Shown here one piece after another: positions 6,673 to 19,600 of a DNA stretch of 20,356 nt. Under the pieces are notes generated by a model. It saw only the letters and a program-made list of their open reading frames with translations. It was not told the DNA's origin and did not search any database. Positions within the stretch are counted from its first letter, which is position 1. Each line of letters begins with the position of its first letter. Both the position numbers and the translations under genes were made by a program. Origin of the DNA: a virus; IMG/VR virus record IMGVR_UViG_3300008450_000610, positions 1 to 20,356 of that record. One strand, written 5' to 3'.

Positions 6673-6958
6673 TGTTTTGTAGTTTAGTTTTGTAATTATT
6701 AAATTTATTATATACAGCTAATTTAGCTGCTTCAATTTCGGACATTCTTTCTTCAAACGTAAAGCTTGATTGTGGTTCTTCAAATTCGATTCCCCATTCT
6801 TTATATATTGCGATACCTTGCATTTGTAATCTTACGTTTTTGATACCACAAAATAATGCCATTAGTAATTGTGCTTCATCACGCCCTTCCATTTGTAGAC
6901 ATAAATCTTTTAGTTGAGTCATTATGTGTCTTAATTCTTTTGTGTTATTTGCTTTCAT
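6665..6958 (-). CDS. Hypothetical protein, 97 residues, first gene of the leftward operon
   Basis: The first gene after the promoter at 7025-7056, with a leader of roughly 60 bases. Its N-terminal part is helical (LRHIMTQLKDLCLQMEGRDE, about 9-28), followed by an Ala/Leu/Cys-rich helix and an acidic region (EFEEPQSSFTFEERMSEIEA). It overlaps the next gene by 8 bases. No recognised domain. Small proteins in this position of phage genomes are often host-takeover or anti-defence factors, but nothing in the sequence shows this here. Confidence 0.6.
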   Translation of the reverse strand: MKANNTKELRHIMTQLKDLCLQMEGRDEAQLLMALFCGIKNVRLQMQGIAIYKEWGIEFEEPQSSFTFEERMSEIEAAKLAVYNKFNNYKTKLQNND

Positions 6959-7024
6959 TTTCCTTTAGTTTTAGTTTTTTTAGTTTATTGTTATTGTCTA
7001 CATTAATAAATATCTAAGAATATA

Positions 7025-7056
7025 CAAAAGTACAAATTATTTTACACATTGTCAAA
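7025..7056 (-). promoter_or_regulatory. Bacteroidota-type promoter for the small-gene operon
   Basis: Read on the minus strand: TTTG (7056-7053), 20 bases, then TACTTTTG (7032-7025). This equals the Bacteroidota vegetative consensus TTTG-N(19-21)-TAnnTTTG at every fixed position. It lies 67 bases upstream of the start codon at 6958 and directly downstream of the terminator that ends the replication operon. Confidence 0.75.
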
Positions 7057-7065
7057 TAAAATGAT

Positions 7066-7101
7066 AAAAAAAATGCTAAGTAATTGAATACCAAGCATTT
7101 T
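7066..7101 (-). terminator. Intrinsic terminator of the leftward replication operon
   Basis: On the minus strand AAAATGCT (7101-7094) pairs with AGCATTTT (7077-7070) around a 16-base loop, and the stem runs into eight T residues (plus-strand A at 7066-7073). It lies 15 bases after the stop of the nuclease gene at 7116. Confidence 0.75.
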
Positions 7102-7115
7102 AATTTCAATATGGT

Positions 7116-7568
7116 TTATTGTGTAAATGGTTTATGTACCACTCCAAACTCGTCTTCATATTCAAAAAAGTAAAAATCATCTTCAAATATGTCGTATGTT
7201 TCTTCATTTTCAGACCATTCTTCTTTTGAATTTGGTAATAGTTTTTTTATTGTGTTGTATATTATTCCAAAACCTTCGTTAGTAAAACACTCAGTGTGAC
7301 CACCTAAATGTTGTTTTGGTTTATATTGTATCTTCTCCTGTCTGATTATTCTTTCTATAATCAGAGATTCAACACCTCTGGCTTCTAATCCAGTTTTACA
7401 ATTGAATGATACGCTATCTATAACTTTGTATTTTTTTTCGTTCTTAAATCTGGTATTGATGTCATATTTAGTCACACCTATTTTATTAAATATCTCGTCT
7501 GTGGCTCCACTCAAACAAACTACGTATAATACGTGTGGTTTTATTGCTTCTATTGTTTCGTCTACCAT
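7116..7568 (-). CDS. GIY-YIG-type nuclease (T5orf172/MUG113-like)
   Basis: 150 residues. The order of motifs follows the GIY-YIG superfamily: VLYVV (13-17) in place of GIY, KIGVT (29-33) in place of YIG, R40 about ten residues later, a helix with E67 (GVESLIIERII), then Y82-K-P and GGHTECF (89-95), which is characteristic of the T5orf172-like branch. Family members cut DNA with one metal ion; many are phage-encoded. The C-terminus from about 113 is acidic with many aromatic residues. Its ATG overlaps the stop of the helicase-like gene by one base (TAATG), so the two are likely made together and may act in replication or recombination. A free-standing homing nuclease is less likely given the tight coupling. 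Confidence 0.72.
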   Translation of the reverse strand: MVDETIEAIKPHVLYVVCLSGATDEIFNKIGVTKYDINTRFKNEKKYKVIDSVSFNCKTGLEARGVESLIIERIIRQEKIQYKPKQHLGGHTECFTNEGFGIIYNTIKKLLPNSKEEWSENEETYDIFEDDFYFFEYEDEFGVVHKPFTQ

Positions 7569-10189
7569 TATAATTCTTTTATTTCAAAGTTATATATACC
7601 CATCGTGTCATCTAAGTTGTGATGATTTGGGGTGTTATACACAAGCAAAGCGTCGTGTAATCTGATTGGGTTTTGTAACCTGTTTAAATATTTGTATTGA
7701 TTAACAACTCTTTCTTCAATTACAGTCATCGTTCTGTAGAATGAACCCTTTTCTTTTGTAGTTATGTTGGCTAAGTTTTCAGCTTTATCTGTTGCGTATC
7801 CACAATTAATATAAAAAGCTTTAACAACTGATTTTTGTTTTCTAGCATCATTTAACATACTATTAAATTTAACCTTGGCGTTTGCTCTATCGATTTTTTC
7901 TGCATCAACTATGTTGTTATAAACGTCCTGTCCAATGTTGGTGTCTAACATTTCATCAATGAATGTTGGAAACGCTGATTTGATATCAATCTGAATTAAT
8001 TGGTATGGGACATATCCTCTCAATTGTCTTGTTGTTTTAGTTGCTGTGTTGAAATCTCTATTGTCAATCTTTGTTGATTTAAAACCGTATGTATGACCAG
8101 CACATTGTAATGATAACATTGATAACACGTAAAATTTGTGTCTGTCGATTTGTGCATTGATTGAGTATGTGTTCATCTTCACAGTTGAGTAAATACCTTT
8201 TTTGTTGTCAATAAGTGATTTCTTTATACTCTCAAACTTGGCCATCAATTGGTTCTGTTCGTCAGTTGTATAGTCGTATTCTTTTAATTTAGTTACAATA
8301 TTTCTAAGTGTGTTTTTTAATGGAACACCAAACTTTACCTTGTGGAATGATTTCTCATCAATCTCTTTTAACTTGGTGTAGTCTTTTGATATGAATAAAC
8401 TTCTCGCATCAACACCCAATTCTTTCTCGATGCCTGTGAAGTAGTCTTCAATCAATTCTTCTGATATTATAGCAAAACCATTTAACATTCTTTCAGCTTC
8501 TGCTTCCAAATTCATATCAGCTACTTTTTGTATCGCCCATAAACTATTTATAACTTGTTTTGCTTTAACAAACAAATTATCTGCGGTTATTCTTGTTGCT
8601 TGTGTATATGATGTTTCACCTTTTATAAACTCTTTACATAAAGCACCATCAATTATTGCTTGTTTTATTTGTGTATCAGCTACTCTGTATTTTGTTATCT
8701 TATCTATTTCACTCATCTTATCTGGGTAAGCTAAATCATTTACATCAATGAAGTTTTTTGCTCTCGCTAGTATTCTATCATATCTTCGACCTTCTTGATT
8801 GATTAAATATGATGATTGAGTTCTCCCAGCTAATAACGCAGTAGCCCACAATAGAAGTGCTTTCTCATTAAAACCATTGTAGTCTTCATCATCACCTTTG
8901 ATATGCTCTACAACAAGCTTAAATTGCTTGTGTTGTATTTCCTCGTCTTGATTGATTAAATTGGTTAATTTAGTTTGTATATCTACTGTGTTCCCTGTTA
9001 CATCTCCATCAAAATCATCAGTTGATGTAGTGAAGCCGTATCCAGTTAATGTTGTTATTATGTTTTTTTTATTGTAGGTTAATCTTTGGTTTATTGCTTT
9101 AATGTGTGGTTGTATTTTTGTTAAATAAGTGTCGTCCATATCAATCATTGAGATTTCTTTTTCGCTAGCTTTTATAGTTGTGTCTGGTGTTCCAGTTGTT
9201 CTATAAAATAATTGTGCGGCTAATACATTTCCTCTACATCTTCCGTATGCTTGTACTATCTCGTTAGTTGTTTTATTGTCAACTAAACTAATTTGGTCAC
9301 TTATTATACCAACAGCACAATCAAAAGGAAAATCAAACCCAATTTGGTATTTTGTTGATAACACGTATACGTGAGCATCTGGGTTAATTCTTGACATTTC
9401 AATGTCATTCAACTCTTTTAATGTTTTTGATTTGTATTGAGATAATTTAGCTGATAGTGTTGGTCCAGTTAGACACTGTACAGTATATGGTAAATTATCA
9501 GTGTTTAATAAATTTTTTATCTTTCTTTCATCATTCGTGTGTAGTACAACCTTTATGCCTTTGTCACAGTTTTCTTTAACAAAATTCCAATAATTATTTA
9601 TGTTGGTTATTGTAATATGTTTCTTTCTCTCTTCAATTCTTTTAATTAAATAAACTTCCATATCATCTTGGAATGTTTGTGGTATGTCTAGGTTTTTATA
9701 TACAGGTGTTGCTGTTGATAATGTTGTGTGTGCTGTGTGTTCATTGAATAATATGTTGTAAAATTCATTTAAAGATGTTCTATACTCACTTTCACTATAG
9801 ATTTGAAATTCATCAACAAAAAATGGAATGGTCATTATTCTTGCAAATAATCTTGGGTTGTTCTTTTTTAGTTCAATGATTTGTTCTGGTGTTGTGTTTA
9901 GTATTATCTTTAAACCCATATTTAATCCTCTCTCGTATGTGTTAAAATTATCAACACTAAATTGGTAAATAAACATTTGATGGTCTACCCTATTTAATTC
10001 TTTACCTTGTATCATTCCAGTTAATGGACTGATGATGATTATGTTTTGGTCTTTTACATTTAATATAGATGTAGTACCACCAATTCCTGTGTCTCCTTTA
10101 ATAACCATCTTGTTAGATGAGAATTCAGTTATTATTTTGTTTGCTTGTGCATCGTTTGAAACGAAGTCTTTAATTTTAATCTCTATCAT
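7568..10189 (-). CDS. SF2 helicase-like protein with C-terminal polymerase-like domain
   Basis: 873 residues. Helicase part, about 1-330: motif I GDTGIGGTT (32-40) with Gly38 where Walker A normally has Lys; motif II VDEFQ (125-129); motif III STAT (158-161); motif V STKYQIGFDF (278-287); motif VI QAYGRCRG (313-320). These identify an SF2 DEAD/DEAH-like core. Residues about 340-690 are helical and unassigned. The C-terminal part resembles a polymerase palm of the family A kind: motif A-like QIDIKSAFP (733-741, D735), motif B-like KSVVKAFYINCGY (786-798) and motif C-like RLHDALLVY (843-851, H845-D846). This suggests one polypeptide that unwinds and copies DNA. It is the only large replication protein in the window. 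The helicase assignment is well supported; the polymerase assignment is inferred from three short motifs in the right order. Confidence 0.72.
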   Translation of the reverse strand: MIEIKIKDFVSNDAQANKIITEFSSNKMVIKGDTGIGGTTSILNVKDQNIIIISPLTGMIQGKELNRVDHQMFIYQFSVDNFNTYERGLNMGLKIILNTTPEQIIELKKNNPRLFARIMTIPFFVDEFQIYSESEYRTSLNEFYNILFNEHTAHTTLSTATPVYKNLDIPQTFQDDMEVYLIKRIEERKKHITITNINNYWNFVKENCDKGIKVVLHTNDERKIKNLLNTDNLPYTVQCLTGPTLSAKLSQYKSKTLKELNDIEMSRINPDAHVYVLSTKYQIGFDFPFDCAVGIISDQISLVDNKTTNEIVQAYGRCRGNVLAAQLFYRTTGTPDTTIKASEKEISMIDMDDTYLTKIQPHIKAINQRLTYNKKNIITTLTGYGFTTSTDDFDGDVTGNTVDIQTKLTNLINQDEEIQHKQFKLVVEHIKGDDEDYNGFNEKALLLWATALLAGRTQSSYLINQEGRRYDRILARAKNFIDVNDLAYPDKMSEIDKITKYRVADTQIKQAIIDGALCKEFIKGETSYTQATRITADNLFVKAKQVINSLWAIQKVADMNLEAEAERMLNGFAIISEELIEDYFTGIEKELGVDARSLFISKDYTKLKEIDEKSFHKVKFGVPLKNTLRNIVTKLKEYDYTTDEQNQLMAKFESIKKSLIDNKKGIYSTVKMNTYSINAQIDRHKFYVLSMLSLQCAGHTYGFKSTKIDNRDFNTATKTTRQLRGYVPYQLIQIDIKSAFPTFIDEMLDTNIGQDVYNNIVDAEKIDRANAKVKFNSMLNDARKQKSVVKAFYINCGYATDKAENLANITTKEKGSFYRTMTVIEERVVNQYKYLNRLQNPIRLHDALLVYNTPNHHNLDDTMGIYNFEIKEL

Positions 10190-10204
10190 TATTTTTGTTT
10201 TTTA

Positions 10205-10233
10205 TTATTAAGTTATACAATTGTACTTAATAA
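10205..10233. promoter_or_regulatory. Perfect inverted repeat upstream of the helicase-like gene
   Basis: Arms TTATTAAGT (10205-10213) and ACTTAATAA (10225-10233) are perfectly complementary around an 11-base spacer (TATACAATTGT). It ends 16 bases before the start codon at 10189, so it is either an operator or a leader hairpin close to the ribosome-binding region. A site for a phage repressor or for autoregulation is a reasonable inference. Upstream on the minus strand, TATACTTTG is a poor match to a -7 box. Confidence 0.5.
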
Positions 10234-10260
10234 ATATGACAAAGTATATAATAAACACAC

Positions 10261-10290
10261 AATGAGAAAATAAAATTCTCATTTTTTTTT
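10261..10290 (+). terminator. Rightward intrinsic terminator with no upstream + strand gene
   Basis: AATGAGAA (10261-10268) pairs with TTCTCATT (10276-10283) around a 7-base loop, followed by a run of nine T (10282-10290). The polarity is rightward. On the minus strand the hairpin is followed by GTGTGTTT, which is not a good U tract. All nearby genes to the left are on the minus strand, so it would end antisense or small-RNA transcripts. Confidence 0.6.
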
Positions 10291-10415
10291 ACCGTTTTGA
10301 CTTAAATGATTGATAATGAGGTTGTTTAATTTACTATGTCGTATGGCAAATCTCGTTTTTTATATAAGAAGAAAGGAAAAATTGCCAAGCGATATACCTT
10401 TATCTCGATATGCGA

Positions 10416-10850
10416 TTATTTATTCATCACGGTTAAACCACTTTCACCAATTACTTTAATCACACTAGCACAAACCAAATCAAAATTCATTATTATAGTT
10501 GGATTATTTATTACACCAATCTCATCATTACAAGTAAATTGACAAACAAAACTACAATAACCAATATTATCATTTTTTGTGTTGTGCACAATACATAAAC
10601 TATCCTTCAATTCAGACACGAATATAATGCGTCTTAAGCCCACTATTTTTAACTTTCTTTCCTCTTGTATCCAAAGGCGGTTTAAACGTCTTGTAATCGC
10701 TCCTATGGTGCCAAATTTTTGATTATGAATATAACAGCCAATCTCAACATTACCAATATTACTTTTTCTATCACTAGTTGATAATGATATTCTGTAGTTT
10801 CCAATCTTTGTTTTTTTTTCACTACCAATTCTTTTTTCCATTTTTTCCAT
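10416..10850 (-). CDS. Protein with repeated I-G turns, unknown function
   Basis: 144 residues from the ATG at 10850. The open frame extends further up to 10928, but that part overlaps the promoter at 10889-10920, so translation must begin at MEKMEKR (10850) or the in-frame ATG at 10841. The N-terminus is basic; the body has Ile-Gly or Val-Gly pairs at short intervals (RIGSE, KIGNYR, NIGNVEIGCY, GTIGAI, IVGLRR, NIGYCS, EIGVI, VIGES), suggesting short beta strands and turns as in a beta-propeller or solenoid. Several Cys residues are present. It is the first gene of the leftward replication operon; a role as an early regulator or host-takeover protein is a guess. Confidence 0.6.
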   Translation of the reverse strand: MEKMEKRIGSEKKTKIGNYRISLSTSDRKSNIGNVEIGCYIHNQKFGTIGAITRRLNRLWIQEERKLKIVGLRRIIFVSELKDSLCIVHNTKNDNIGYCSFVCQFTCNDEIGVINNPTIIMNFDLVCASVIKVIGESGLTVMNK

Positions 10851-10876
10851 TCTATATGTTTTTTTTAAATTATTGT

Positions 10877-10896
10877 TATATTTATATACAAATATA
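10877..10896. promoter_or_regulatory. Inverted repeat overlapping the leftward -7 box
   Basis: TATATTT (10877-10883) and AAATATA (10890-10896) form a 7-bp inverted repeat with a 6-base spacer. The right arm lies within the leftward -7 box, and the left arm is a 7-of-8 match to a rightward TAnnTTTG box. It may be an operator that controls the divergent promoters, or only AT-rich chance. Confidence 0.35.
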
Positions 10897-10920
10897 GTAA
10901 ATAAAAATGACAAAGGCAAA
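10889..10920 (-). promoter_or_regulatory. Bacteroidota-type promoter for the leftward replication operon
   Basis: On the minus strand: TTTG (10920-10917), 20 bases, TATATTTG (10896-10889), which matches every fixed position of TTTG-N20-TAnnTTTG. The predicted start of transcription lies near 10882, about 30 bases before the start codon at 10850. The -33 element touches the ATG of the divergent sigma-factor gene at 10920. Confidence 0.75.
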
Positions 10921-11507
10921 TGATACAATTTAACGAAAAACTATTAAAACAATACACACCACTTATTAATGCAACAGCACATAGTTATGGTATTAAAGAT
11001 AAGGATGTACTTGAGGACCTTCGCCAAGAAGGACGAATTGGTTTATGGGAAGCAACATTAAAATATGATGAAACAAAGGGTGCTTTTCCATCTTTTGCAA
11101 AAACACATATACGTAAACATCAACTACGCTTTTTGGATAATAACCTAACCAATATAAGAATACCTGTTAATATAAAAGATAAAGAATTAAAAGCAAACTA
11201 CAGAACAATATCACTAGATACCCCTATAAACGATTTTAACATACTTTTAAGCGATTCAATCCCAAATGAGGACCAAGAGGAACAAATGGATATAACACCT
11301 CTTAAAATCGCTATATTAAAGCTTAAACCAAAAGACCAAGAATTAATAAATGAATATAATTTATTAAGCGGTGAATACAAAAGAGGACAACCAACACTTA
11401 TGTTAGCTGCTAAATATAATATAACAAGACAAGCAATACACCAACGTATTAACAGTATTATTAAAAAAATAGAAAAATATGTCAATGATAATCAACAACT
11501 TAAGTAA
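10920..11507 (+). CDS. Phage sigma-70 family sigma factor
   Basis: 195 residues with two sigma domains. Region 2 (about 8-85): a helix, DLRQEGRIGLWEATLKYD (33-50) corresponding to the core-polymerase-binding 'DL.QEG..Gl..A...fd' motif, then GAFPSFAKTHIRKHQLRFL (54-72) for -10 recognition. Region 4 (about 127-188): ILKLKPKDQELINEY and a helix-turn-helix (PTLMLAAKYNITRQAIHQRI, about 158-177). A sigma factor of this size would redirect host RNA polymerase to phage promoters. It begins the rightward module, divergent from the early promoter, and is the best candidate for activating the late genes. The ATG at 10920 directly precedes the region 2 helix. Confidence 0.88.
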   Translation: MIQFNEKLLKQYTPLINATAHSYGIKDKDVLEDLRQEGRIGLWEATLKYDETKGAFPSFAKTHIRKHQLRFLDNNLTNIRIPVNIKDKELKANYRTISLDTPINDFNILLSDSIPNEDQEEQMDITPLKIAILKLKPKDQELINEYNLLSGEYKRGQPTLMLAAKYNITRQAIHQRINSIIKKIEKYVNDNQQLK

Positions 11508-11586
11508 ATATCTTAAACAAAACCAGGCGAAATTGAAAATGTTAAATATTTATAGTTATAACAAAAACAATTAAAAACAAAAACAA

Positions 11587-12069
11587 ATGTCAACAAATAA
11601 AATGTATAGAGAATTAGATGACTTGGGAAGAGCATATTTTCAAGGGTATTGCAATGGCCAAAGCTGGTGCAAGTTTGAAAGAAAAAGCAAAGATGATTAC
11701 TCCAAATGGGATGTAAGTTATAAAATAGAAGATACACTTGTAATTGGTGAAATTAAAAGAAGAAACTACGACAGTACAGATTTCGATACGTGGGTGTTGG
11801 AATTAGACAAATTAAGAGGACTTCAAACCATAAAGGATGAATGTATTAAACACAGAAAGAACATATATAAGAAGGTTGCTTTACACTATATAAACATATA
11901 TAATGACAACACCATTGTAATTTGGGATATAACCAATTTAGATGAGAATAAGGTAGGTGTATTTAAAGCTGATATGCCAGCAACATATTGTGGAAACCAA
12001 GCGGTTAAAACAAAGAATACAATCTTTTTACCAATAACAACAGCAATTATAAACACAAGTAAAAAATGA
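11587..12069 (+). CDS. PD-(D/E)XK nuclease-like protein
   Basis: 160 residues. The N-terminal helix (MYRELDDLGRAYFQGY) precedes SKWDVSYKIEDTLVIGEIKR (39-58), which holds the expected catalytic set: D42, then beta strand and E55-x-K57. A following helix (WVLELDKLRGLQTIKDE) and strand (VALHYINIY) complete the alpha/beta nuclease core. Related phage proteins act as resolvases or recombination exonucleases; the substrate here is unknown. The gene is preceded by an 80-base A-rich stretch without a recognised promoter, and its last 4 bases overlap the next start codon (ATGA). Confidence 0.7.
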   Translation: MSTNKMYRELDDLGRAYFQGYCNGQSWCKFERKSKDDYSKWDVSYKIEDTLVIGEIKRRNYDSTDFDTWVLELDKLRGLQTIKDECIKHRKNIYKKVALHYINIYNDNTIVIWDITNLDENKVGVFKADMPATYCGNQAVKTKNTIFLPITTAIINTSKK

Positions 12070-12419
12070 TAGATAAGAAAAAAATAGAAGACTTTAGTTT
12101 TACAGGGTTGATAATAAATAAAACACCTAAACAAATCTTCAAATTGGTTGAAACACAATTATTAATTGATACACAATATGTACAACAATTAACCTATAAC
12201 AACCAACCAGATGATAAATTTATATTAGCAGCAATATATTACTTTATAAGCAAATACTCATTTTTTATAACTTACTATGAACAAAATGAAGAGTATGAAT
12301 ATGCTGGTCAATTAAATAAACATATATTGGCGTTGCTAATAGATTTAGAAATAAGCGAAGAAATACTACAAGGTATAATTGCCAGGAGTATTGAAGGATT
12401 CAGAAACAAAATTAATTAA
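12066..12419 (+). CDS. Helical hypothetical protein, 117 residues
   Basis: The start overlaps the nuclease gene stop by 4 bases (translational coupling). It appears mostly helical, with KTPKQIFKLVETQLLIDTQY, ILAAIYYFISKYSFFITYYE, an acidic EQNEEYEYAGQLN linker and ILALLIDLEISEEIL. The hydrophobic stretch at about 53-68 is short and contains charged neighbours, so a soluble helical bundle is more likely than a membrane protein. No family is recognised. Confidence 0.65.
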   Translation: MIDKKKIEDFSFTGLIINKTPKQIFKLVETQLLIDTQYVQQLTYNNQPDDKFILAAIYYFISKYSFFITYYEQNEEYEYAGQLNKHILALLIDLEISEEILQGIIARSIEGFRNKIN

Positions 12420-12421
12420 AT

Positions 12422-12676
12422 ATGAAAGAAAAATTAGAACAACTCCAAAATGAATTAAATGGTAACCCAAATTGGAATACCATAAAAGAACTTGAATTAT
12501 ATTTTCTTGGTAGCAAAACAGGATGCAGTTGCAAACAAAGAAGTGTATTGGAAAGATTAAACCAATATTGGAATACAACAGGTAAAAAACAATTACAAGA
12601 ATTAAATAATTTAGTAAACACACCACAAATAGGTAGTAGTGGAAATTTTAATAATAACGAAGACTCAACAAAATAA
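12422..12676 (+). CDS. Small protein with C-x-C motif, 84 residues
   Basis: Two helices (MKEKLEQLQNELNG, and VLERLNQYWNTTGKKQLQELNNLV) flank a GCSCKQR motif with C35 and C37. Only these two Cys are present, so a full zinc site would need dimerisation or a partner. The C-terminus is a Gly/Asn/Ser-rich tail. It lies 2 bases after the preceding stop and 3 before the next start. It may be a small DNA- or virion-binding protein; function unknown. Confidence 0.62.
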   Translation: MKEKLEQLQNELNGNPNWNTIKELELYFLGSKTGCSCKQRSVLERLNQYWNTTGKKQLQELNNLVNTPQIGSSGNFNNNEDSTK

Positions 12677-12679
12677 AAT

Positions 12680-12877
12680 ATGAAAATTAAAGAAGAATTT
12701 AAAAGTGTTATCATTACCCAAGGTAAATTAACACTTAACGCAAAAACAACCAACCCATCGGAATACGAATACTATTATCATAATGGTTTTAAATTTATGT
12801 TTGAAGAAGAAACAACACCAGAAGAAAAACCCATTTCAACCAAAAATAAGAAAAAAATAAGATATAAAGGAATTTAA
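12680..12877 (+). CDS. Small protein, 65 residues, upstream of the second sigma-like gene
   Basis: It begins MKIKEEFKSVIITQGKLTLN and has a YEYYYHNGFKFMFEEE core (29-44), a Pro/Glu linker and a basic tail (KNKKKIRYKGI). Small beta-rich proteins of this type often lie just before terminase genes in Bacteroidota phages, but their function is not known to me. Its stop codon is immediately followed by the ATG of the next gene. Confidence 0.58.
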   Translation: MKIKEEFKSVIITQGKLTLNAKTTNPSEYEYYYHNGFKFMFEEETTPEEKPISTKNKKKIRYKGI

Positions 12878-13444
12878 ATGATTGCTGAAATAATGATTAC
12901 AAAAAAAGATATAGATGTATATTTTAAAGACAATTACAGTTTCTTGCAAAAGATTGCCAAGTATCATATTTTTTTAAATAAACGACTCATCAACCCAGAT
13001 GAACTAATAGCTGAAGCTTATTTATATATAATCAACAAACAAGAAATAATAGAAAATGTAAAAGATATAAATACATACACTTGCAAATACATAATGATGG
13101 AAACAAAATGGATGAATAGCAAGAATAATAAGATTAGCCCACGTAACGTAATTGAATTTAATGATAATAACAATACAATTGATGATGATACCGATACAGA
13201 CGAACTGGTTGAGTTAGAATTATGGTACAATACCCAAAGAGCAAAATTAGAAATATATAGAACAACCATAACAAAGAAAGAAGACCTTATATTTTTTGAT
13301 GTGTATTGGAATAGAGTTAGACAAGGATTAAAAGTAAGTGTAAGACAAATAGCTAGACATTTCAACATAACACCAACAGCAAGCCATATACTAATCGTTA
13401 AGATGAAAAATGATATAAACAATTACTTTATTGGTGACAATTAA
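12878..13444 (+). CDS. Second sigma factor-like protein
   Basis: 188 residues. Region 2-like (about 20-85): YSFLQKIAKYHIFLNKRLIN, PDELIAEAYLYIINKQ, and NTYTCKYIMMETKWMNS, which keep the order of helices but have a divergent core motif. An acidic linker (NDNNNTIDDDTDTDELVELE, 95-114) separates region 4-like residues 134-182 (EDLIFFDVYWNRVRQGLKVS, then VRQIARHFNITPTASHILIV), with a clear helix-turn-helix. It is much less like a standard sigma than the 10920 product. The in-frame ATG at residue 6 is an alternative start. It may be a late sigma factor or a DNA-binding packaging accessory; the position next to terminase allows both. Confidence 0.68.
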   Translation: MIAEIMITKKDIDVYFKDNYSFLQKIAKYHIFLNKRLINPDELIAEAYLYIINKQEIIENVKDINTYTCKYIMMETKWMNSKNNKISPRNVIEFNDNNNTIDDDTDTDELVELELWYNTQRAKLEIYRTTITKKEDLIFFDVYWNRVRQGLKVSVRQIARHFNITPTASHILIVKMKNDINNYFIGDN

Positions 13445-13463
13445 TTAATGACTAAATCATTAA
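13445..13463 (+). promoter_or_regulatory. AT-rich hairpin directly upstream of the terminase small subunit
   Basis: TTAATGA (13445-13451), loop CTAAA, TCATTAA (13457-13463): a perfect 7-bp stem three bases before the start codon at 13467. It could mask the ribosome-binding region and limit small-subunit translation. With only two G-C pairs it is not very stable, so this is tentative. Confidence 0.35.
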
Positions 13464-13466
13464 AAT

Positions 13467-13937
13467 ATGAACGAAGAAAATAAATTTACCAACAAACAAC
13501 TTAGATTTATCGAAGAATATTTGATTGATTCTAATGCAACACAAGCTGCAATTAGGGCTGGGTATTCAAAAAAAACGGCTTATAGCCAAGGAGAACGATT
13601 GTTGAGGAATGTCGAAGTATCTAAAGCATTGAAAATGAAACAATCAATTCAATCAGAAAAATTAGAGGTAACACTTGAAACGACAATACAAGCAAATAAA
13701 ATACACGAAGAAGCATATACAAAATTACTTGAATTAACCCTTAAGGCAACACTAACCACCGAAGAAGAATTAATGTTTACAAGATTAGCTATGGTTTGTA
13801 AAGCTTCTGATGCAATTAAAGCCAGAGAAATGAATGCAAAGCTATTAGGTTTATTTAATATCGATGGCGACACCATCAACACCAAGATAGACAAAATTAA
13901 TATAAACATCGTTAGAAAGAATGACAAACCAAATTAA
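13467..13937 (+). CDS. terS: Terminase small subunit
   Basis: 156 residues. The N-terminal DNA-binding part FTNKQLRFIEEYLIDSNATQ (7-26) followed by AAIRAGYSKKTAYSQGERLL (27-46) and RNVEVSKAL is the hallmark of the Terminase_2 family: 'F...Y..d.NatqAairAGYs..tA...g.rLL.n..V...l'. Helices from about 60 to 125 form the oligomerisation part and the end (INTKIDKININIVRKND) contains beta strands. It recognises the packaging start site and recruits the large subunit. The gene overlaps the large-subunit gene by 17 bases, so the two are coupled. Confidence 0.92.
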   Translation: MNEENKFTNKQLRFIEEYLIDSNATQAAIRAGYSKKTAYSQGERLLRNVEVSKALKMKQSIQSEKLEVTLETTIQANKIHEEAYTKLLELTLKATLTTEEELMFTRLAMVCKASDAIKAREMNAKLLGLFNIDGDTINTKIDKININIVRKNDKPN

Positions 13938-15099
13938 CATCGCTGCAACAACTGTATTTGAAAGAAACTACGATGCTGTATTTAATAGTGATAAACGATT
14001 CATTATAAACCAAGGGTCATCCCGTAGCAGCAAAACATATTCTTTGTGCCAACTAGTTATAATATATGCAATGCAAAATGAAGACAAGGTAGTATCAATA
14101 GTTAGAAAAACATTCCCAGCATTGAGAGCAACTGTAATGAGAGATTTCTTTGAAGTGTTAAAAGACTTTGGAATATATAATAAGAAGAACCACAACAAGA
14201 CAGAACACATATATACATTTCCATCTGGGAGTATTGTAGAATTCTTTAGCGTGGATAATGAACAGAAAGTTAGAGGTAGAAAAAGAGACTTATGTTGGGC
14301 AAATGAAGCTAATGAATTATGGTATGATGACTTCAACCAATTAAACTTTAGAACCACAGATAAATTTATATTGGATTACAACCCCTCAGAAAACTATAGT
14401 TGGTTATATGAATTACCAAAAGAAGACCAAATATTCATACAATCAACATATAAAGATAATCCATTCCTACCACAATCCATTATAAGCCAGATTGAGAATC
14501 TTATTAACACAGATGAATCATTATATAAAATATATGCATTAGGTGAACGAGCAGCGACAAAACAAAACATATTCACCAACTGGACATTTATCGACAATAA
14601 GCCAGAGAAATTTAGAAAATTTGTTTACGGATTAGATTTTGGTTATAGTCACCCAACCGCACTTGTAAAGGTATGGTTTAATGAGAATGAGTTATTTATT
14701 GAAGAGGTAATATATGAGAGTTATTTAACATCAGCTGACCTTATAGAAAAGATGGATGGTTTAGGTGTTGATAAGAATACAGAGATAATTGCGGATTACG
14801 CTAGACCAGAGATGATTGCTGAATTACAACGTGCTGGTTATTATATATTGAATGCTGATAAGTCGGTACAGAAAGGTTTAAACATTGTCAAGACATATAA
14901 GATATATGTTGATGCTAAAGCTAACAATATTAAAAAAGAATATGAAAATTATTCATATAAAAAGATAAAAGATATTATAACTGATGAACCAATTAAATTA
15001 TGGGATGATGGAATTGACGGCTGTAGGTATTCAATTGTATACCTACATACTACATATAATAATTCAAGTGGTTCGGATGTATTTAGTTTTTCTCGATAA
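13921..15099 (+). CDS. terL: Terminase large subunit
   Basis: 392 residues. ATPase domain: Walker A-like GSSRSSKT (32-39), adenine/arginine region IVRKTFPALRATVM, Walker B-like LCWANEANE (124-132) with E129 likely catalytic, coupling motif LDYNPS (151-156). Nuclease domain of the RNase H type: YGLDFGYSHP (236-245, D239), IIADYARPEM (289-298, D292) and DDGIDGCRYS (362-371, D366). This order fits Terminase_3/Terminase_3C proteins. It packages DNA through the portal with ATP hydrolysis and cuts concatemers. Length is normal for the family. The portal gene is unusually far away, at 3393 and upstream of the early block. Confidence 0.93.
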   Translation: MTNQINIAATTVFERNYDAVFNSDKRFIINQGSSRSSKTYSLCQLVIIYAMQNEDKVVSIVRKTFPALRATVMRDFFEVLKDFGIYNKKNHNKTEHIYTFPSGSIVEFFSVDNEQKVRGRKRDLCWANEANELWYDDFNQLNFRTTDKFILDYNPSENYSWLYELPKEDQIFIQSTYKDNPFLPQSIISQIENLINTDESLYKIYALGERAATKQNIFTNWTFIDNKPEKFRKFVYGLDFGYSHPTALVKVWFNENELFIEEVIYESYLTSADLIEKMDGLGVDKNTEIIADYARPEMIAELQRAGYYILNADKSVQKGLNIVKTYKIYVDAKANNIKKEYENYSYKKIKDIITDEPIKLWDDGIDGCRYSIVYLHTTYNNSSGSDVFSFSR

Positions 15100-15123
15100 G
15101 TTCTGAAACATTAAATTAAAAAT

Positions 15124-15135
15124 AAACAATTATAT
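15124..15135 (+). promoter_or_regulatory. ACAATTATAT element upstream of the tail gene
   Basis: AAACAATTATAT in the 49-base gap between terL and the tail gene. It shares ten identical bases with the elements at 1231-1240 and 2951-2960, but no hairpin follows and the start codon is only 13 bases away. If the element is a -10 type box, the leader would be very short. Confidence 0.38.
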
Positions 15136-15148
15136 TAAAAGATAAATT

Positions 15149-16633
15149 ATGGCAATTTCTATACTTCAATCACCATCACAATTACAACCAGTCTATAATC
15201 CAATTATATTGGCATTAGATAGTACCCAAAAGGCACAAACAAATTTCACATACATAATTAAAATTGAGGTGGATGGAAACGAAGTTGTAGCATTACCTAT
15301 ATCATCTAATATAGACGGTTATGGGGTGATAGATGCTCATAAGCACATTGAGAATTATGTTACAAATTCAATTGACACAACATCATTAGCTACATTCAGA
15401 AAAATAGAAGATAGCTACGTTGAATATTCATTTAAGTTATTTGAGCAGTATGATGTATCTGGAACAACAACACAATTTAGTGCTGCAACATATACAGCAA
15501 CAACATATGCTTACAATGGTGTTGAGGATTGGTTAGATTTCAGAAACTATGATTATACTGATTATGTTATATCATCAGCATCAACTGGTAATTTCTTATG
15601 TACAATACCAACAGATGGTGTTACAATGAAAACTACAGATTCATCTTATATTAATTTCTATAATCAAACAACCAACACAACCAACTTCCTTGAAGTAACT
15701 ACAAGTAATGGTGGGGTATACAGAATTACTAATCCTTGGCAAACATCAGTAGCTGCAACTAAATTTTTGCAAGCAGCTATTGGACCATTTAACATAGCAA
15801 ACACAACATCAACTGTAACGATGATGAGTGGAACATATCCAATCATACAGGATACCACAGAATATTATGATGTTAGATTATTGGATGTAAGTGGTAATCC
15901 AACAAGTCAATCAATCAGAGTTAATATTGATAGAAGATGTTCGAAATATGATACATATCAAATGCTTTATTTGGATAAGTCTGGTAGCTATTTAAACTTT
16001 AACTTTGACTTAGCACATAAAGTAAACACTACAGTGTCTAAGAAGTCATATAACAAGAGATTAGGAAGTTTTAATCCTAATACACTTGAATGGGGTTATA
16101 GTTTAGCAGATAGAAGCAAAAAGATAATGGATGTAACCATCAACGATAAATATACTATAACATCAAATTGGGTAACTCAAGCAGATAGCAACAGAATTGT
16201 TGATTTAATTTCAAGTCCAGAGGTATACCAATTGCTTGATGGCACTGTTACATATTCAGCAGCAACAACAGACAATGTAGTAGGCTATTCAAACAACGGT
16301 GGTTTATTACAATTAACAGTAACAAGTCACGGTTTATCATTAGGTACGTTGGTGAGGCTTTATGATACTATCCCAGCTTATAATAATGTATATGCTTATA
16401 TAACAAGCATCGACACTTTAAATGCATTTACTGTTAATTTAGCGTATAATGGAAATACATTAACTGGTATTGATAAAATAGATACACAAACAATAACAGT
16501 TACAAGTGGTGACCTTATAGCAGTTAATATTGATACTAATAGTATTGAAACTAAACAGAAGGTTAATACTAAAATGATAAACTATACAATAGATTTTAGT
16601 TATACATTTACAAATTATAGACAAAGGAACTAA
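15149..16633 (+). CDS. Tail protein (distal tail / tail-tip associated)
   Basis: 494 residues, beta-rich, no enzyme motifs. The N-terminus ILQSPSQLQPVYNPIILALD, followed by a NFTYIIKIEVDG stretch, and the C-terminal DLIAVNIDTNSIETKQKVNT, then MINYTIDFSYTFTNYRQRN, are the style of tail structural proteins in Bacteroidota phages that precede the large tail-tip protein. Residues about 388-440 (LTVTSHGLSLGTLVRLYDT, YNNVYAYITSID, FTVNLAYNGNTLTG) form a compact domain also found in the next protein, probably an insertion. The gene ends 2 bases before the next start, so both are made together. Function as a tail hub or fibre-anchoring protein is inferred from position. Confidence 0.65.
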   Translation: MAISILQSPSQLQPVYNPIILALDSTQKAQTNFTYIIKIEVDGNEVVALPISSNIDGYGVIDAHKHIENYVTNSIDTTSLATFRKIEDSYVEYSFKLFEQYDVSGTTTQFSAATYTATTYAYNGVEDWLDFRNYDYTDYVISSASTGNFLCTIPTDGVTMKTTDSSYINFYNQTTNTTNFLEVTTSNGGVYRITNPWQTSVAATKFLQAAIGPFNIANTTSTVTMMSGTYPIIQDTTEYYDVRLLDVSGNPTSQSIRVNIDRRCSKYDTYQMLYLDKSGSYLNFNFDLAHKVNTTVSKKSYNKRLGSFNPNTLEWGYSLADRSKKIMDVTINDKYTITSNWVTQADSNRIVDLISSPEVYQLLDGTVTYSAATTDNVVGYSNNGGLLQLTVTSHGLSLGTLVRLYDTIPAYNNVYAYITSIDTLNAFTVNLAYNGNTLTGIDKIDTQTITVTSGDLIAVNIDTNSIETKQKVNTKMINYTIDFSYTFTNYRQRN

Positions 16634-16635
16634 TT

Positions 16636-19600
16636 ATGAATCAAGATATTAAAATCATATTACCACAAGGAGAACTTGATATAGATAGCCAAATTGGATT
16701 TGGTGTTACATATAGTGTTGATGATGTTAAAAACATTACCAAGAAAAATGCTAACTTTACCAAAACAGTTACATTACCTGGTTCAAAAAATAACAATATC
16801 CTTATGGGAGGGTTATGGGACATCAACGCAGATTTCACATACTTCAACCCTAATTTTAAAACACCAGCAAAAATAGTTGTTGATTCAACGACTATATTAG
16901 ATGGTTATCTACAATTAAAGAATATTAAGGTTTTACCAGTTGCTGACTTTGCTGGAAATTATATTCAATATGAGGTTGTTTTATTTGATAATTCAGTTGA
17001 CTTCACAATTGAGATTGGAGATAAACTATTAACAGATTTAAATTTTAGTGGTTATAATCACACATACAACAAACCAACTATTGAAGCATCTTGGACCAAT
17101 ACATATACTGATGTGTATACATATCCTTTATTATACAAAGGAAGTGACACATATGTAACCAGTGATTTTAAACCTGGTTTTTATCACAGAGCATTACTTG
17201 AAAAGATATTCGAAACTAATGGATATACATTTGGTGGTTCATTTTTCGATAATGCTACATATAAGAAAGAGGTAGTTCCATTCAATGGACAAACAGTTTC
17301 ATTACCACCAGCTGAGTTTACTAGAAGAAACTTCCGTGCTGGAATGACTGCTAATACACCAACACTATCAACTACATCATATAAGGGTGGTATTAGCAAC
17401 AATGCTGTTTTAAATCCAACAATCCAAACATCATTAAGTGCTTATACGTATTTGAATGATGATTCAACATTACCAAATTTTGATAATGATAATCATTTTG
17501 ATACGTTAACATCAACATATACTGTTGATAGAAATGGTACTTATAATTTAGATGGTATACTTAATTTTAAAGTTAAATTTGAATCTAAGATTGATTTCAC
17601 TGGATTAACATCTGGAGCAACAATCAATAGGATTAAAATTACATATCCAAATCACGACTATGAATCTGGCACTAATGTTATTATAACTGGTTCAACTGGT
17701 TATGATGGAACATATTCAATTGCTGCTGTAACAACTAATACTATTGAAATTGCTAAGACATTTAGTGGTACATCAACTGGTACATTAGCTGTAACATCAT
17801 ATCAAGTAGGTTTTGGTGTTATTGGTGGTAATCAATATAACAACCCAACATATAATTTAAACAGTTTTAATGGTGGTACATACAGTGTAGTTATAACTAT
17901 GTATAAGAATGGTATACTACAACAAACATTTGGTAGCCCACAATTAGGTGGAACAGGTTCAACATTTCCTTATACTTCATTTTCAAACTCAACATTCAAC
18001 ACAGCGAACGATTGGGAAGTTGAGGGTAATCATAGAGTAAATATATTAAGACCTAACTTACAATTATTAAGTGGTGATGTTATAACTCTTAAATATAATA
18101 TAGTTAAAACACCAGGGTCTGAAAGTAGTATGAATAGGTTAATGTATGTTGATGGTACAACATTCAACTCAGCCAAATCAGTTCCTTTAAAAATTAAATT
18201 AGAGGGTGTGACAGGAGCAACCAATAATGCATTTTTAAGTTCAACATCACAACATAGTGAAATGACTGATGGTGATATCATTTATTTAAATGACTTTATT
18301 CCTCAGAAGATAAAACAAATTGACCTTCTAAAGGATGTAATTCAACGCTACAACTTATATTCAACGGTACACCCTAATGATGATAGAAAGATTTTATTAA
18401 ATAGTAGAGATGATTATTATTCAGCATCAACTCAAACACTTGATTGGACTTCACTAAAAGACTACTCATTTGAAGATAAGATTCAATTATTATCGGAACT
18501 ACAAAACAAAGAGGTATTATTTACATACAAGGCTGATAGTGATGAATGGAATAAGAATTATACGCTTGCAACTAGTGGTGATTCAAGAGGTCAAATATTT
18601 GGTCAAAAGAAAGTTGAGTACGATAATGAATTTGCTCAAGGAGAGAAAAAGATAGAATCAATATTCAGTCCAACACCAAACTGTTATAATTCAGTAAACC
18701 AAAGATTTGTTATACCAACAATACCAGCTGTTAATCCTAAAACAAACGTAAGGGTTATATTAAACAATGGAATGAAGGACCCAGTTAATACATCAGATGG
18801 TGCTGGAGTGTATAGCTGGTATTGGGATTGGTATAGTGGTAATACAGCACAACGTACATACTACTTACAATATCCTTATTATTCACATAACAATGACCCA
18901 TACAATCCAACAGATGATATTAACTGGGGAGAGGTTCCTTGGGAATATCACGCAGAACAACAAACAATAACTGATAATAACTTATATAATAGATATTGGA
19001 AGAATTATATTGAACAAATAGCAACAGGAAGACTTGTAACCAGCAGATTTTATTTAAATGAAGTTGATATTAACAAGGTTAAAAATGCTTTAAATACTCG
19101 TATTTTTGTTGATGGTACATACTACTACATAAATCAAATAGTGGATTACGACCCAACAAGACAAGGTGAAACAACAGAGGTTCAATTATTAAAGATAAAT
19201 AACCCTGTGGTATTCACTCCAACTATTTCAACTGGTACAACTATATTCACTCCTTATGAGGCAATGAGACTTGTTCAACCTAATGTGATTGACAATACGA
19301 ATACGATATTATCAAGGAATGTTATTGTTGGTGGTTCAAATAACTTTGTTGGTCCAAACTCTGATGGTGTTGTTGTTATTGGTAATGATAATATGATTGG
19401 AGAGAATTTCAGAGGTATTGTTATTGGTTCTGGTATAACAGCAAGTGAAGGTGGTATATATCTTGAAAATGCTTATATCAATGAGGATGGTACTGTTTTC
19501 AACTTATCTGGAGAAACTATATCAAATAATTTTTGTGAGAGTGGATTAACCACAAGTGTAATTACAAGTTGTGATGGTGGTAATATGACCATTGGTGGTG

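Follow-up and report, generated by a model that had tools for sequence, protein, structure and literature searches.

An 873-codon gene among phage genes

Can one phage protein both open DNA and copy it? The question is raised by a long gene in an IMG/VR record. The window analysed is that entire record, 20,356 bases; since it is classed as linear, it is probably a fragment of a larger genome. A preliminary description had marked an open reading frame at positions 7568-10189, without a strand, and read its product as a single-chain helicase-polymerase. The open reading frame list and translation agree with these limits. The frame is on the minus strand, runs from 10189 to 7568, and comprises 873 codons. 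It is surrounded by phage genes, encoding terminase subunits, portal, prohead protease, holin, and a sigma factor (the last at 10920-11507). Elsewhere in the window, a 188-aa protein (12878-13444) weakly resembles a D5-like transcription regulator (PHROG 323, E=0.019). Downstream, also on the minus strand, is a 150-aa endonuclease-like gene (7116..7568; PHROG 681 endonuclease, E=2.5e-6). Its start overlaps the stop of the long gene, in the sequence TAATG. This overlap suggests coupled translation of the two. The 20,356-base window, probably a fragment, shows no primase gene, and it encodes no second polymerase besides the protein studied here. A search for iteron-like repeats near the gene returned just weak two-copy repeats in AT-rich DNA.

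Searches with the whole 873-aa protein gave no credible match in Pfam, PHROGs, NCBIfam, or PDB sequences. Similarly, as a single query against phages, plasmids, and viral and genome contigs, the open reading frame found nothing. Note that the contig scans used exact 8-residue seeds. Homologues of moderate identity escape such seeds, which likely accounts for the empty result. Phages with related portals were also inspected (L016-L019, 57-58% identity; L075, 44%). No homologue was found in L016-L019, and L075 has a DnaB-type gene.

An N-terminal SF2 helicase with a variant motif I

The N-terminal section of about 345 residues is an SF2 helicase, as judged from profile matches and motif content (residues 1-345; 9155..10189, minus strand). 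A hidden Markov model built from 12 family members, leaving out the fusion protein, scores that protein at 46.4 bits; the best of 1000 shuffles of the same protein reached 7.4 bits. The profile of the helicase family matches eIF4A, Brr2, and SNF2 in the PDB, with E from 1.8e-4. A Pfam DEAD match, to residues 1-337, is weak and below the cut-off (E=0.0033). The AlphaFold model of the helicase is of low confidence (pLDDT 52), and its top Foldseek matches are all SF2 helicases. The alignment and profile, together with this low-confidence model, indicate two RecA-like domains bearing motifs II, III, V, and VI in order. These four motifs had been picked out in the preliminary description, and they align with those of 12 homologues. 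Motif II is VDEF (residues 125-128; 9806..9817), where D126 and E127 are invariant in alignment A1. In the same alignment, motif III is STATP (158-162; 9704..9718), with A160, T161, and P162 invariant, and the motif V region (278-286; 9332..9358) includes G284 and an invariant D286. Motif VI is QAYGRCR (313-319; 9233..9253), in which Q313, G316, R317, and R319 are invariant. All are encoded on the minus strand.

Motif I was missing from that earlier list. It exists, in a deviant form, as KGDTGIGGTTS (residues 31-41; 10067..10099, minus strand), with K31, G35, G37, and T40 invariant among 18 aligned helicases. Here, glycine replaces the catalytic P-loop lysine. The canonical Walker A sequence, GxGK[TS], is absent, and none of the 24 family members compared (24/24) has the P-loop lysine. 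Rather, the family pattern resembles KGxTGxG[G/A][T/S]. Since the profile and the other motifs fit, we file the domain as an SF2 helicase whose motif I is a variant. With the P-loop lysine missing, we cannot be sure that it is an ATPase. As a separate observation, the invariant lysine (K31; 18/18 helicases of alignment A9) is seven residues upstream of the P-loop lysine site.

A putative TV-Pol-type domain at the C-terminus

The C-terminal section of about 170 residues is best described as a polymerase palm/fingers domain, predicted to be of minimal TV-Pol type (residues 700-873; 7571..8092, minus strand). When residues 591-873 were compared with 395 Bacteroidota genomes, there were two strong matches (E=1.7e-33 and 2.6e-30). 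Identity of the palm to homologues L111 and L112 is 39-41% over 148-171 aa. A palm profile, applied to 399 genomes of one family, gave seven strong matches, two of which are the same fusion. An additional palm relative came from a third genome sample. In the resulting ten-sequence profile (A6), the invariant residues are R711, R724, P728, D735, A739, Y757, K772, N780, Y798, E825, R843, H845, and D846.

Many of these fall in recognizable elements, all encoded on the minus strand. A presumed hairpin, with R711 as the template-contacting residue, is followed by R724 (residues 709-724; 8018..8065). Motif A is IDIKSAFPTF (7961..7990), containing D735 and A739. Motif C is RLHDA (843-847; 7649..7663), containing R843, H845, and D846. 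Motif B, in the fingers, is R768-ANA-K772...N780 (7850..7888), and hhalign places it on the bacterial Pol I R..K..Y / RxxxK helix. K772 is present in all ten sequences; R768 is gapped in four SF3-linked relatives in the ten-sequence alignment. D735 and D846 are 111 aa apart, a shorter spacing than in Pol I, as expected if the domain is minimal. The preliminary description had proposed three polymerase motifs. It had placed D735 and the H845-D846 pair correctly. Conversely, its motif B, KSVVKAFYINCGY, was rejected, because the lysine directly before AF is threonine in L112. That segment falls after the true motif B.

Some further searches gave false leads. The pattern DIKSA[FY]P retrieved mostly family B polymerases and chance frames, and palm-only tblastn matches in phages proved to be a V-ATPase subunit and a VWA-like protein. 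Large phage contigs also encode 302-304-aa proteins (L003:1251-2159 and an L068 open reading frame) with VDIKSAFPT or DIDIKSAFPT and a later KDG. These are possibly degenerate polymerases, to judge from such motifs; profile comparison gave no link between them and the palm family of the fusion.

Links between the palm and known polymerases

Single-sequence AlphaFold prediction of the palm alone gave no usable model (mean pLDDT 34.9) and, hence, we infer the fold by other means. The palm profile led to a more distant family of stand-alone proteins (~440-525 aa), sampled in 24 of 300 genomes. Profile comparison joins this group to the fusion-palm group (E about 1e-6). Aligned with T7 RNA polymerase, the stand-alone profile has motif C in register and scores 27.7, where 59 column shuffles gave a mean of 12.5 +/- 2.1 and a maximum of 18.5. 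With Pol I, motif B is in register and the score is 22.3, where column shuffles gave a mean of 12.7 +/- 2.5 and a maximum of 21.2. The link to T7 RNA polymerase is thus clearly above its null, and that to Pol I barely so. In a combined profile that includes the fusion protein, IDRANAKVKFNSMLND falls on the RxxxK helix of Pol I. Direct HMM searches of the PDB with palm profiles matched no polymerase. Hence, the fold assignment is based on motif order, conservation, and in-register alignments. The fusion protein matches neither Pfam DNA_pol_A (PF00476) nor any AEP primase profile in Pfam or NCBIfam. Microcystis phage Ma-LMM01, which is said to carry a TV-Pol, gave no match to profile A8.

The region between the two domains (residues 346-690; 8120..9154, minus strand) has no domain assigned. 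It aligns across three fused proteins, and its roughly 350 residues are conserved among these only. There is no Pfam match, and the extensions at the C-termini of other family helicases do not resemble it. This section may hold the polymerase thumb, which in TV-Pols consists of two helices ahead of the palm. The preliminary description, which likewise matched it to no domain, had suggested a priming function there. Since the polymerase domain appears to be a minimal TV-Pol, rather than an ordinary family A enzyme, priming more likely resides in the polymerase domain itself.

The same fusion in integrated elements

Two full-length homologues, alignable end to end, are encoded by integrated elements in Bacteroidota genomes: L137:9087-11717:- (877 aa, 31% identity) and L138:9418-12129:- (904 aa, 27% identity). 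Both have a motif VI identical to QAYGRCR. The L137 element, of about 10 kb (6801-17465), splits yifB, so that the N-terminal half ends ...HHTISDV and the C-terminal half resumes ...PQPGEISL. A large serine recombinase is at one end, and the fusion gene is the only replication-like gene seen in the element. In L138, the fusion adjoins a tyrosine integrase and type I restriction genes. Note that gene names in both elements were read from sequence.

In a helicase tree, the three fusions form one clade (100/100), with a long branch for the present protein. Since the present palm is closer to helicase-less palms (38-42%) than to the fused ones (32-34%), we considered whether palm lineages had exchanged domains; the palm tree does not place this palm firmly enough to decide. 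Other palm relatives are also found in mobile elements, with helicase and recombinase genes. In L128-L131, an SF3-like helicase comes after the palm, recognised by reading GGRGKT / ILDDV / TTNW in the sequence; L156-L180 are stand-alone palm relatives. Separately, integrated elements L139-L144 repeat one gene order: an integrase, a ~300-aa open reading frame (where present), an HTH gene, and a palm protein with or without an SF3-like helicase. After these there are often genes for restriction or another defence-like function; the gene names were assigned by reading.

Comparison with known systems

TV-Pols are minimal family-A/T7-like polymerases with an arginine hairpin, two aspartates, and an RxxxK sequence, and are predicted to prime (Iyer, Abhiman, and Aravind 2008, PMC2579912). 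They may stand alone, have an N-terminal helical domain, or have a C-terminal D5-like helicase, and are found in mobile elements, including those of Bacteroidetes (PMC2579912). The present domain has the absolutely conserved arginine before motif A (R711, ten of ten, in the presumed hairpin), the two metal-binding aspartates (D735 in motif A and D846 in motif C, both invariant in ten), and RxxxK in the fingers (R768-ANA-K772). Like the published family, it has no exonuclease and its relatives are near helicases and recombinases (PMC2579912). Because these features match, we assign a helicase-TV-Pol architecture. Furthermore, L128-L131 match the published layout of TV-Pol followed by D5 helicase, and L156-L180 repeat the stand-alone layout (PMC2579912). 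The difference is in the helicase, which here is SF2 and N-terminal, whereas that described is D5-like SF3 and C-terminal.

The nearest experimental parallel is CCPol-MP-Cch2 of SCC elements. This system also combines a family A polymerase domain with a helicase, in a mobile element, and was found by experiment to be a primase-polymerase (PMC7581432, PMC10061031). CCPol, counted as a TV-Pol, primes DNA de novo with MP (PMC7581432, PMC10061031); by itself it only extends primers, priming having required MP (PMC10061031). In contrast to the present protein, that system consists of three separate proteins, has a D5/COG3378 helicase, and needs the SSB-like MP. No MP-like partner of the fusion protein was identified. 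A helicase and a polymerase also share one chain in GP55 of lactococcal phage 1706, where the domains are unrelated: a helicase with Walker A/B, sensor 1, and arginine finger, an AEP primase, and a family B polymerase (PMC12205980). The All3500 family (pVOG1685/9714) joins a primase-type domain to a phage SF2-like helicase in one chain; its synthetic domain is AEP, whereas ours is TV-Pol (PMC5862659). The literature searched, seen partly and mostly outside subscription papers, makes no mention of an N-terminal SF2 helicase with a TV-Pol. Hence, within that literature the pairing appears new, although both parts are known.

A probable helicase-TV-Pol replication protein

Homology identifies both domains, their catalytic set is conserved, and they recur as one protein in integrated elements. 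Together with profile comparison, these results uphold the idea of a single-chain helicase-polymerase, with the amendment that the polymerase is of TV-Pol type, not ordinary family A. That it makes up the entire replisome core of the phage, as the preliminary description suggested, goes further than a linear 20-kb fragment can show. The fusion is probably a primase-polymerase with its own helicase. We consider it reasonably likely that a phage of Bacteroidota type uses it as a replication protein, whose helicase opens DNA and whose TV-Pol starts and extends strands. We infer that it unwinds, primes, and polymerises, and likewise infer its specificity for an origin and whether it needs a partner such as SSB. 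Briefly, the SF2 half would melt, or translocate along, origin or fork DNA, and the TV-Pol half would start and extend DNA strands on the opened template. D735 and D846 would hold two metal ions, K772 and R768 bind the incoming nucleotide, and R711 hold the template. The host polymerase may take over afterwards. By analogy, helicase relatives lend support, since one (L038) carries a primase-type domain, Toprim, in the same chain. A bolder version is possible, but we hold it only tentatively. This is a self-starting, single-chain replicase, whose SF2 helicase, with its lysine-less P-loop, would recognise and open the origin and whose TV-Pol would prime and copy it without a separate primase or SSB-like partner. 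If so, a single protein would be enough for an element of ~10 kb, or a small phage, to initiate its replication.

Ordinary family A polymerases extend primers. The protein might do the same, as a helicase-coupled, strand-displacing polymerase whose primers come from the DnaG of the host or from another phage gene. CCPol fits this reading, since without MP it only extends primers (PMC10061031). We nevertheless think it rather unlikely; the TV-Pol domain of relatives occupies the usual place of a primase, beside an SF3 helicase, and the window, though a fragment, has no visible primase gene. That the protein serves to repair, recombine, or defend the element, instead of replicating it, seems less plausible still. 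Restriction-modification genes do adjoin the palm gene in several related elements, and a defence role for A-family primases is raised by the authors of PMC10061031. Against this, the fusion is the sole replication-like gene seen in the ~10-kb L137 element and, in the window, its neighbours are phage genes and there is no other polymerase. It is hardly credible that the palm is a catalytically dead accessory of a protein acting only as a helicase: short as the domain is, and with N in place of the usual tyrosine of motif B, both aspartates, the lysine, and the template arginine are invariant over ten diverged sequences.

With the helicase-TV-Pol reading, the TV-Pol primase-polymerases gain an architecture that has an SF2 helicase. 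It is carried by a tailed phage and by elements integrated into Bacteroidota genomes, and there it is invisible to Pfam, PHROGs, and NCBIfam. The pairing could let an element start its own DNA copying, and offers a compact system for asking whether family-A-type domains prime without a partner.

Relatives of the helicase

The analysis also delimits a family of phage helicases whose P-loop is unusual and whose members occur widely in phages and in mobile elements of Bacteroidota. When contigs were scanned for KGxTGxG[GA]TT, a similar helicase turned up in about ten phage contigs, and two further searches with such helicases brought in members from phages of Acinetobacter, Edwardsiella, and Psychrobacter. 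Scanning genomes yielded 27 loci; by title, 25 are Bacteroidota, one is Rickettsiales, and one is Bacilli. Bacteroides congonensis has eight copies. In L038 (653-3616), the Toprim domain is N-terminal to the helicase (Pfam E=7.6e-11). The C-terminal regions of L041:3971-6511 and L062:4116-7154 look AEP-primase-like by eye; Pfam gave no AEP match for L041. Many family helicases are interrupted by in-frame stops, either TAG (L077, L081, L083, L086, L087, L090, L093-L095, and L099) or TGA (L039, L040, L080, L084, L085, and L089). When these stops are read as a residue, the helicase frame extends to 450-645 aa in most cases. Such frames are consistent with recoded phages, which are known from the gut.
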